The notes under the pieces were generated by a model, which worked only from the letters and a program-made list of their open reading frames with translations, had not been told where the DNA came from and ran no database searches. A stretch of DNA of 64,000 bases from Cyathus striatus (taxonomy: Eukaryota; Basidiomycota; Agaricomycetes; Agaricales; Nidulariaceae). Numbering within the stretch: position 1 is the first letter of the stretch; each line of letters begins with the position of its first letter. The stretch is taken from contig JAOVFP010000021.1 in assembly GCA_025738555.1 (NCBI GenBank), positions 1,798,001-1,862,000 of the forward strand, in the 5' to 3' direction. Below are positions 54,672 through 61,855 of this stretch, one piece after another. Position numbers and translations under genes: made by a program.

Positions 54672-55000
54672 CACACGGCCGGATTAAGTAAGAAACATTA
54701 TATAATCGACTTGCTCATGCTGGAGGCAACTTGTTGTATCATTTTCTCCTGTACTCTCAATGTTCTAGCTGTTTTTGCTACATATATATTATATATACAC
54801 TTATACATTCTAATGTGACCATTTTTTTTGGAAAAAAACTGCAAGAAACTTCCAGGCTCCTAAAACCTACCTCTCGTTGCGGTAGGGGGGCCCCATCCTA
54901 GTAGTGTAGTAATACATGATGTGTAATGAACAAACAAAACCAAAGTCAACTCTCCCCTCCCTACCGCATAGAGAGGCTGGCAAATTGTCCTGTCACGTGA
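54672..55000 (+). repeat. left terminal inverted repeat of the 7.2 kb element
   Basis: It pairs with 61601-61855 in three blocks as described for the element. It is longer than the right arm because of an 80-nt AT-rich spacer (54720-54835, including a run ATATATATTATATATA). Confidence 0.75.
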
Positions 55001-55150
55001 TGAAGTCACCTTCCGATGTGACTCAAGAATACTCAATAAACCCTAAGCGAGGGCTTGATTATATTGACTCGGCTCAGTCGGCTGGTCAATTTTTTTTAAA
55101 TAAGATCATTTATATATTGCGAGCAGAATGGGTTGTTGAATTGTAATACA

Positions 55151-57900
55151 ATGCCTCTTTCTACCGAAAAACTGAAAGCCATCCTCGATCTGCTCTCTAA
55201 GAATGGGACTACAGTTGCTGGGTTCATAATTGATTTGCTACAAGACCATACTCTCGCGAGCCATGTGCAGTTACAAGCCCTTGCAGAGCGTGGCAATGCA
55301 ATCTACAGCATGCTCACAGAAAATCCTACCACTGCGAAAGTTGTCAAAGAATGGAAGAGCCATATTGTGAACGAAGCCGTGAACAGCGTGAAGGAAGGAT
55401 ATTCCAAGGAAATAGCTGCACTGACAGATAAGCTGGCCGGGTTTCACTTTGGCGCCAAAAGCACGACACAAGAAAAGCTGTCAAACTTTAGTATAGCAGA
55501 GACAGCAGAAAAAATGAGGAAACTCGCACCAGCACTTTGGAATTTATTATCCACATTGCTTGATGGTGATTCTGAGAGAGGACGCAGTCGTAAACGCAAA
55601 CGTCGCAACCGGACAGCCAAAGCAGGCGAGCCAGCAGTACCAAGTAAAGGTGGAGGTATCCATGGAAGAGGGAACAATGGTGACATAGAAATGGAAGACA
55701 TAGGAGACTCAGAGAGTGAGAGGGAAGAGGAACAAGATATTGTAGAGGATGGTGACGATTCCCCAGAAAACCTAGAAGATCACTTAGAGCAACGGCGGCA
55801 AGCTCTGATTACAATTGTAAGCCTTAAATGTATCATTAAATGAAATACTACTTACTATAAGTTGTAGAAACAGGTTATATGCATCAGCGTAATGATGCAG
55901 AGCAATAATCAGATTTGCAATGCACTTCAATCCGTTGTAGGGCTATTCTTGCATTCATGTAATGCGCCCAAAGCTGTTGTTGAACTGTTGAATCGCATGG
56001 GCCTGTCGATCTCAACAACTGCCATCAATCAGGCTGTAACAAACTTGTCCGGTGAGGCCCATCGTGCGATGCGCAACTTGGGTCAGAAGTTTATGACATC
56101 ATATGCATATGATAATCTCGACATTGACCTGAAACATGCGGTACCAACAGCTGAGAGGTCAGAAGACACACTGGTACATCTCACCACAGGAACAATGATT
56201 CCACTAGAACATAATGTAACACCGCAAGACCTGGACTGCTCTGAATATCTGTGGAAAAAATCAATAAATAACACCACTGGGAATTCAGATGGGTTTAGGA
56301 TACCTTTCAACGACATTTTGGACTATTTTAGCAAACTGGAGAAGCCACATGAATCAGGATTGACCAACCGGCAGCGCTATAATCAGTGGAAGTTCCTTTT
56401 TGACTTGATAAATTTCGGCCCTGAGGATTTTCATCGTTTTCGCAGCATCCTAGGAGAGCCAGAGGTTATTGAACAGATAGCAAGAAAGAAGATGCAGCAG
56501 GTACCTCTCAAAACACTTGACTTAAGTCCATCAACACCAGCCCAGAATGCCAAAGCACTTGAAACGTTCCTGCGTCAAGCTGGCGTCGGTGATCCATCAA
56601 AGGACAAAACACTGCGAGCTGTTGGTAATAACGTGATAATAGTTTTCGGGGATTTGCTCACCTTAGAACGCATTCGTAGCCTTCTCGAATCTCGTTCTGC
56701 AGAGACATCACCATGGAAGAGGTTACAGTTTATAGTTGCCGTCATGGGGCTTTTCCATCTAAAAATGGCATGTGCTGATGGTATATGGCGGATATTCATC
56801 AAGTTAAAAACCTCAGATACTGATAAAAATAGCTTGATAGAACATGTCAAGCAAATACGACCTAGAGAATCAGGGAAAATAGAAAGCAAACCAGGTTTTC
56901 GGCGCATGCACGAAGTAATTCAACACATCGGAATTGCTTCTCGTTTGGATGTGTGGAGAGTAGAAGCTTTGAAAAAAGGCTTCTCAAGTCTCAAGAGTTT
57001 TGCTGAGAGTAAGCCATCTTGGGAAACATTGAAGGACATGGCGAAGACACTAGTCCTGGAGCAGGTGGCAGATGGTTCAATGTTACGAAATCTTCAAGCA
57101 CAAGATGCGAGTCAGTGTGACCAGGAACACGAAAACTTGCTAATGCGTCAACAATACTTCTTATTGTACGAGGAAATGTCACATGCGCTGAACTGCGGCG
57201 ACATTGGTCGCGTAGAGGCATGTTTTCTACCTTGGATGTTTATATTCCAAGGCTGTGGCAAGCATAAGTATGCTGCGGAGATGAGAAGGTATCTAGAGAA
57301 CGTACATTTTATATATCCAAAAGGTCTGAGGTATGCCTATGTCAATTCCAGCTATCTGGTGCTTCAGTTGCTCATGTAGCTTCAGTAGGGCAATTAGAAT
57401 GAATATACTTTGCAATCCTACTGGTAAAAAGGGGCACTTCAGAGCCATTGACTGGGTTGTCAAGCACAATAACCTATACATCAAGGTGAGTATTGGTTAA
57501 GATCAAGTTTACAATCCTGTTAATTAATCAGAGGATATATGGTGGTAAATACTCAAACCACACGAAGTCGAGAATCCTTAAAGAGTCCGCTCTGATAGAA
57601 GTTTTTAAAAACATTCGCATGCAATTTGAATCCATGTTCTGCTTAAAGCACAAGACAACTAGGCATTCACCACCAAAGATGAGAGCTACATTCTCGAAGC
57701 TTGGATCTTACATGCACGACAACAAAACAAATGCTCGAGTACCAGGACGTAAATCGACATATTGCATACCGGACACCATGGCGAAAGGTATGCATCCTTT
57801 CTTGACACAACGATCAGCCGAGCTCGAAGCAGACGGAGATTGGATAGACTTACCGGATGAGGACATCGAGGTGGAGGATGACGGGAGCCTTGATGTGTAG
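55151..57900 (+). CDS. DUF6589-type protein of mobile element, 865 aa
   Basis: Four exons (55151-55816, 55868-57330, 57386-57485, 57532-57900) give 865 residues. The first about 220 residues are helical, then basic (SRKRKRRNR) and acidic (SEREEEQD). The conserved part follows: VVGLFLHSCNAPKAVVELLNR, then SYAYDNLDIDLKH, PTAERSEDTLVHLTTGTMIP, FGDLLTLERIRSLLESR, VAVMGLFHLKMACADGIWRI, a C-terminal AAEMRRYLENVHFIYPKGLR, NPTGKKGHFRAIDWVVKHNN and an acidic tail. I recognise this as the DUF6589 family common in mushroom genomes. The two Asp-containing motifs (YDNLDID and FGDLLT) recall DDE-type nucleases of transposases, but that is inference. Intron positions fall between conserved blocks and all joins keep frame, so this copy seems intact. 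Confidence 0.7.
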
Positions 57901-58006
57901 ATACATAAATGTATACGTCTCCGGGTTGTCTTCGACGCGGTGATGTCTATGGTGATGTATCAGTCCCACGGCATAGATACTTCACGAGCGCTGAGTTGAA
58001 CGGGGG

Positions 58007-61300: not shown

Positions 61301-61395
61301 ATCCAACATGGGCACTTGTTGAACTTTAACTGTACGAGCCTTCGGATTTCTGCCACAGACCATTTTCGCGTGGATTGTCGGCGTGGACCTGACAT
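58288..61395 (-). pseudogene. RecQ-like DNA helicase with zinc knuckle and Pro-rich tail, frameshifted
   Basis: Exons read leftward: 61395-61054, 61004-60376, 60317-59719, 59658-59116, 59066-58288. Helicase motifs are all present: GCAATGSGKTLSFW (I), VTPLNLL (Ia), IIDESQCISQW (II, DESQ instead of DEAH), AATATLP (III), ATDAFGMGMDIPDIKLVV (V) and QRFGHAARG (VI). After that come a basic linker, a Cys/His cluster (CIHCTPA...CCDECNP), a zinc-knuckle-like CTACGDLNHIRSNHC and a tail of SPIR- and SPFAPPF-type repeats. The frame breaks by one base at about 60590 (a GGG run) and again near 60197, so this copy should not give a full protein unless these are sequence errors. The architecture recalls fungal telomere-linked RecQ helicases. 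It converges on the DUF6589 gene inside one TIR-bounded element. Confidence 0.75.
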
Positions 61396-61600
61396 TGCGT
61401 AGCACTGTTCTCCTATTTTTTGTCCAGTCGAGTTCTATCCGTGTCACTCCATGTGTTACTTGATGTGTTACTTAAAATGATGGGACTTCTAAATTGAGAT
61501 GATAAAAATGATGGGATTCTAAAGAAATACCTCAATACGATCAGTACCATAAGCCCCACGGTAGGGGTAAGAGGACATTCATATGTCACATTTTGAGGTG

Positions 61601-61855
61601 ACAAAAACACGTGACGGGACAATTTGCCAGCCGCTCACTCTCGTTGAGGAGGGGAGAGTTGTGTTTGGTTCTTTGTTTGTACATACATATTACACATCAA
61701 TGATTACTACTACTGATACTAGGATGGGGCCCCCCTCAACGAGAGTCGAGTGGCAGGTTTTAGGAGCCTGAGAAACTTCCTAAGTGGTCTAACTTTCTGT
61801 GAGCGAAGTGAGGCGCGGGGATTATATAATGTTCCTTACTTAATCCAGCCGTGTG
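61601..61855 (-). repeat. right terminal inverted repeat of the 7.2 kb element
   Basis: It pairs with 54672-55000. Additional inverted phrases (CTCAACGAGAGT and ACTCTCGTTGAG) within this arm itself make it partly self-complementary. Confidence 0.75.

Follow-up and report, generated by a model that had tools for sequence, protein, structure and literature searches.

Academ transposons are listed among the DDD/E superfamilies (PMC9587614); target-site duplications (TSDs) of 9 or 10 bp have been described for AcademH and of 3 or 4 bp for AcademX, a difference related to helicase versus nuclease (PMC10045372), and curated Academ elements of bivalves average 5,565 bp in length (PMC10294476). KolobokH has been described with a RecQ helicase, and an arrangement with the helicase on the opposite strand has been reported for one red-algal Kolobok (PMC9587614); Helitrons have neither terminal inverted repeats (TIRs) nor target duplications (PMC4522978). 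Here we describe a locus at positions 54672-61855 of a 64,000-nucleotide stretch of the Cyathus striatus genome (the window; contig JAOVFP010000021.1), in which a plus-strand gene for a protein of Pfam family DUF6589 (PF20231, E 4.4e-76) and a minus-strand gene for a DEAD helicase (PF00270, E 8.7e-14) converge. In the reading that we consider likely, a cut-and-paste DNA transposon occupying 54853-61770, and most probably belonging to AcademH, has inserted itself into a miniature inverted-repeat transposable element (MITE) and has the DUF6589 protein as its transposase.

Two nested elements in the window

A preliminary description of this locus had proposed a single unit at 54672..61855, with three inverted blocks at both ends and two large converging genes inside. 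The genes and the blocks are present, but the blocks do not form one set and the boundaries had to be redrawn: the region consists of two nested elements, a TA-flanked MITE of about 257 bp split by an inserted DNA transposon. The outermost block (54670-54707/61820-61857; 38 nt, 95% complementary) is assigned to the MITE ends, whereas the others are assigned to the inserted element, namely 54853-54876/61747-61770 (24 nt, 92%), 54884-54903/61717-61736 (20 nt, 100%), 54906-54927/61689-61710, 54938-54960/61648-61670, and 54971-55056/61551-61636 (71% over 86 nt). The inserted element measures 6,918 bp, carries CAGGCTCCTAAAACC at both termini, and has imperfect TIRs of about 200 bp, with 66.5% identity across the first 260 alignment columns. 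Between it and the two MITE parts lie 9-bp direct repeats, AGAAACTTC. The features of the locus, with the evidence for each, are as follows.

54670..54852, no strand: left part of the outer MITE, with TA at 54670-54671 (other copies, joined-flank alignment, ends of other copies)
54844..54852, plus strand: left TSD copy, AGAAACTTC (flank comparison, joined-flank alignment)
54853..55056, plus strand: left TIR, starting with CAGGCTCCTAAAACC (inverted-repeat comparison; exact terminus recurring in the genome)
55151..57900, plus strand: DUF6589 gene, predicted DDE transposase (Pfam, splice trial, model of the relative P0004)
57462..57464, plus strand: codon AAG (Lys) at the presumed catalytic Glu site (splice trial, motif of relatives)
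59060..61395, minus strand: gene for a RecQ-like superfamily 2 (SF2) helicase, several exons, first ATG at 61395 (Pfam; RecQ kinship via the relative L082)
61551..61770, minus strand: right TIR (inverted-repeat comparison)
61771..61779, plus strand: right TSD copy, AGAAACTTC (flank comparison, joined-flank alignment)
61780..61857, no strand: right part of the outer MITE, with TA at 61856-61857 (inverted repeats, other copies, joined-flank alignment)

Without the insert, the MITE measures 257 bp, and solitary copies of about 260 bp occur elsewhere in the genome. When its halves are joined with a single AGAAACTTC, six of seven fetched copies (L062, L063, L064, L066, L067, and L068) align unbroken over the junction at 76 to 80% identity, the seventh (L065) aligning over only 105 bases of the left part; these alignments are a paralogous empty site for the window copy. 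The 429 bases at 54672-55100, part MITE and part TIR, have at least 48 matches in the genome, and none of the 48 listed is another copy of about 7 kb with the outer ends. Beside the MITE, a motif around AATCTAGATATA is repeated at 54370-54399 and 54637-54666 and, inverted, at 53813-53833 of the window, and similar sequence also adjoins the MITE copy L063; it is possibly another small repeat.

Recurring ends and target duplications

The exact 15-base terminus of the inserted element occurs 352 times in the 107-Mb genome (172 forward, 180 reverse), against 0 and 0 for a control, the same pattern read backwards. Among the 100 of these 352 places that were listed, 86 form 43 inward-facing neighbor pairs within 25 kb, and there are no outward or same-strand neighbors within 12 kb. 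The inward pairs are spaced by less than 0.5 kb in 2 cases, by 0.5 to 3 kb in 30, and by more than 5 kb in 11. Since a span below 3 kb cannot accommodate both genes, short copies seem to be common, which suggests mobilization in trans, most of the short spans being known from terminus spacing alone.

Both ends were found in 33 copies, which range from 0.2-kb MITEs to 12 kb and include one family with a DUF6589 protein that shares only about 24% identity with that of the window. Perfect 9-bp flanking duplications are present in 25 of them, none extending to 10 bp, and two more copies match at 8 of 9 positions; mismatched combinations of left and right flanks matched in full in 2 of 1,056 cases, both from one inverted pair on C18 with swapped flanks. 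Target sequences vary and the ends are fixed: the element inserts by its fixed ends and duplicates 9 bp of target. For four copies (L028, L035, L088 at its right end, and L091), the ends were moved one base inside the BLAST end so that they begin with YAG; three of them thereby gain perfect duplications and L091 does not. Copies with one or no recognized end (L006/L058, L016, L019/L045, L022/L071, L026/L075, L030, L031, L033, L034, L036, L037, L059, L060, L061, and L082) were left uncounted. YAG-type ends are common to the families read, each with at least one 9-bp duplication: besides CAGGCTCC, related ends with long TIRs occur in more distant families, namely CAGTCTCC (216 bp), CAGACTCC (120-123 bp), TAGTCCGG (307 bp), and TAGTCTCG, the last in two families with TIRs of 166 bp and about 460 bp. 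The end search gave no clear TIR for L082.

A few copies have unusual surroundings. At C18:2.904-2.965 Mb (L017, L018, L078, L084), two copies in inverted orientation, which score equally as matches, lie about 50 kb apart, and their 9-bp duplications, CCAACATGC and CTCTCAAGG, match crosswise only, as expected if recombination between the copies inverted the intervening DNA. At position 274 of L060 (C14:1647100-1647800), a copy end abuts aataggatggggccccct, which resembles the subterminal part of another copy, a junction that is possibly a self-nested insertion. L090 (C4:4.22M) and L091 (C13:2.13M) are 99.85% identical over 5.9 kb, with a TSD in the C4 copy only, and the C13 copy may be a recombinant; a third copy, on C14, scores equal to this pair.

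The predicted transposase and its helicase partner

The DUF6589 gene of the window has at least four exons (trial limits about 55151-55816, 55874-57323, about 57331/57352-57485, and 57532-57900). A structure model of its relative P0004 (predicted local distance difference test, pLDDT, 83) yielded only DDE transposases and RAG1 in the top 22 VIA rows, with Hermes (hAT) as the nearest solved fold, a ribonuclease H (RNase H) core with a helical insertion domain. In the DDE scheme described for the P element and insertion-domain transposases, an Asp lies on beta 1, a second Asp at beta 4, an xxH motif after beta 5, and a Glu in the last core helix (PMC8230255, PMC7780238). The predicted model fits a DDE/D scheme with helical insertion domain through D131, D309, H344, and E560 (P0004 numbering). 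In alignment A3, which has 56 members, D131 on the first strand is conserved in 55, and D309, directly past strand 304-308, and H344, past strand 336-340, are conserved in all 56; the histidine motif is GxxH rather than C/DxxH. E560 lies in helix 555-570 of the model; the motif around it could be located in 70 of 202 proteins, and 69 of these have Glu at this site, the odd one resembling an exon end. By eye, the distant L088 protein has the same D, D, H, and E residues. The fold list and these conserved residues together argue that DUF6589, with a predicted RNase H fold and DDE active site, very probably acts as a DDE transposase, with the RecQ-like helicase as an accessory. A PDB sequence search with the DUF6589 profile gave no convincing match (the best, at E 0.016, was to an unrelated protein), and a viral fold library gave only a weak hAT-like Pandoravirus match (E 0.022); the fold match lists contain no Academ chain, an absence that is uninformative on that kinship. 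Wider literature searches on fungal transposons with helicases showed no DUF6589 element in titles and abstracts.

In the helicase gene, exons below about 60080 were assigned by eye, with no significant Pfam match there. The helicase protein of the relative L082 has PDB matches to WRN, E. coli RecQ, and BLM, as well as a match to TIGR00614 at E 5e-47, below the curated cutoff of that family, and these comparisons mark the helicase family as RecQ-like. In this genome, the helicase and DUF6589 families are both expanded. A PF20231 search, in which 102 of 201 first-look candidates were scored, gave 105 genome matches that merged into 93 loci, and none in 14 control genomes. A convergent helicase match lies within 10 kb at 61 of the 93 loci, against 0.35 expected, and a nearby helicase in another orientation at 1. 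Moreover, the identities of the two proteins to those of the window fall together (Spearman 0.95 for 32 pairs, leaving aside a second, identical copy on C18, a short fragment on C11, and the pair at C2:2.38M; 0.92 for 35 pairs). That the helicase often accompanies DUF6589 and diverges along with it speaks for a role of the helicase, the short copies implying only that encoding it in cis is dispensable.

Several earlier proposals can be revisited here. The preliminary description had seen no classical transposase, a view that finds no support, because DUF6589 itself models as one. Its suggestion that DUF6589 could be the recombinase agrees with the predicted fold and DDE-type residues, and that of a helicase partner with the convergent, RecQ-like genes. 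The search for further copies that it had called for returned the many matches and exact termini given above, and a mobile unit with both genes between like ends does recur genome-wide with target duplications.

The window copy itself looks defective, because the presumed catalytic Glu is Lys and one base is missing from a helicase exon near 60588-60590 in comparison with all three sister copies examined. The helicase is probably frameshifted, and simple splice enumeration of the window gave no open helicase frame above 520 aa. This copy is probably no longer autonomous, and either decayed after moving or was moved in trans. Some other copies look more intact: in L088, two frames of 667 and 669 aa run from stop to stop without interruption, and the nearly identical C4 and C13 copies also belong here. 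Elsewhere in the window, 624-950 on the minus strand is 36% identical to C-terminal sequence of the transposon helicase of 669 aa and is possibly another remnant.

We propose that the DUF6589 transposase would recognize CAGGCTCC-type ends, cut them with a DDE active site formed by D131, D309, and E560 together with H344, and join them to target strands nine bases apart, which would yield the 9-bp duplication. The convergent helicase would travel along and probably open the transposon ends or aid strand exchange or repair. Both the cut-and-paste chemistry and this helicase role are inferred.

Alternative readings and relation to known transposons

Several points weigh against an AcademH-like transposon driven by DUF6589. 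All evidence is computational and comes from one genome. The Foldseek matches of the DUF6589 model are weak (best E 4.6e-3, no TM-score above 0.36), and the solved transposases share 7 to 12% identity with it. The E560 alignment column holds Glu in 26 of 56 members, a gap in 24, and another residue at frayed ends in 6, the gaps probably arising because many entries stop at the preceding intron. In the remaining 6 of the 33 paired-end copies, the flanks match at 7, 4, 4, 4, 3, and 1 of 9 positions. A helicase match is missing at 31 of the 93 DUF6589 loci, a number that overstates the lack because the query was a single 180-aa exon and because the C4 and C13 copies, counted among the 31, do have a convergent helicase by tblastn, a search insensitive enough to miss the L088 and L089 helicases that other comparisons show. 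At C9:3.05M, where the DUF6589 protein is 57% identical to that of the window, neither search nor DNA reading gave a helicase match. Conversely, 21 of 82 helicase loci have no adjacent DUF6589 match; host genes or remnants may account for some of them. Lastly, a low copy number has been described for AcademH, unlike the 352 exact termini and many short copies found here.

It is conceivable, although rather unlikely, that the elements with DUF6589 and helicase form a separate DDE superfamily outside Academ and acquired the helicase and the 9-bp stagger independently. The literature searched makes no mention of DUF6589 (the one match to PF20231 is unrelated by title), the families read share YAG-type ends and 9-bp duplications, and a RecQ helicase was also gained elsewhere, in KolobokH (PMC9587614); however, a helicase with 9-10-bp TSDs in fungal hosts is what has been described as AcademH (PMC10045372). 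A fuller version, which we hold equally doubtful, adds that a dedicated RecQ-like helicase has belonged to the transposition machinery, co-diverging with it and perhaps obligatory to it, across proteins only about 24% identical, so that it too, besides the transposase, would shape end opening and target stagger.

A hAT, Mutator-like element (MULE), or Kolobok lineage with an acquired helicase is highly improbable. TSDs measure 8 bp in hAT elements and are TTAA in Kolobok, neither of which fits the duplications here, and 9-bp duplications are typical of MULEs. Hermes as nearest solved fold and the RecQ helicase of KolobokH (PMC9587614) also speak for such a lineage, but at a threshold of E 0.01 none of the 56 A3 members matches a Pfam domain of hAT, MULE, or Kolobok; the MULE transposase is not among the six Pfam families that they do match at E 0.01, and window open reading frames have no match to it at E 0.1, which leaves room for remote kinship. 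The 95% complementary outermost arms might suggest one 7.2-kb element bounded by the 38-nt repeats, a reading with hardly any probability left: a single unit with three TIR blocks is ruled out by the solitary MITE copies of about 260 bp, the joined-flank alignment, and the perfect 9-bp duplication at the inner boundary. Least credible of all is a chance neighborhood of two repeat-rich gene families, which their expansion might favor; the excess of convergent pairs rules it out, and common ends and duplications argue against it as well.

The preferred reading, an AcademH-like transposon, would give DUF6589, a Pfam family of unknown function, a testable function as a DDE transposase, tie it to helicase-bearing transposons, and account for a large part of the repetition of DUF6589 and RecQ-like sequences in this genome. 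Copies that look intact allow the role of a RecQ-like helicase in DDE transposition to be addressed. Among 7,994 candidates scored, 804 proteins reached E 0.001 or better for DUF6589, and the species-named ones among those listed are from what we take to be mushroom-forming fungi.

Among known systems, fungal telomere-linked helicases are likewise RecQ-like and repeated in a fungal genome (PMC4522978), but the present element sits about 367 kb away from the nearer end of contig C21, its helicase is inside TIRs and has a transposase partner, and the position in C21 rules out a subtelomeric telomere-linked helicase. A Helitron was rejected, TIRs and 9-bp duplications being present. Hermes is the best structural match, with its RNase H core and helical insertion domain, but the element differs from hAT in having no hAT Pfam match at E 0.01, 9-bp rather than 8-bp duplications, and a helicase partner. 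The TTAA target of KolobokH was not seen among the duplications here, which are 9 bp and varied in sequence. KolobokH is similar as a fungal DDE transposon carrying a RecQ helicase, but that helicase lies downstream of the transposase domain rather than on the opposite strand (PMC9587614). AcademH shares the helicase, the 9- or 10-bp TSDs, and Basidiomycota among its hosts (PMC10045372), and the element described here has 9-bp TSDs, an encoded helicase, TIRs, and a predicted DDD/E-type RNase H transposase. By helicase, TSD length, and host type, AcademH membership is therefore likely, with the caveat that AcademH was compared by description only; since helicase-bearing DNA transposons with 9-10-bp TSDs have already been described under that name, the kind is probably not new.
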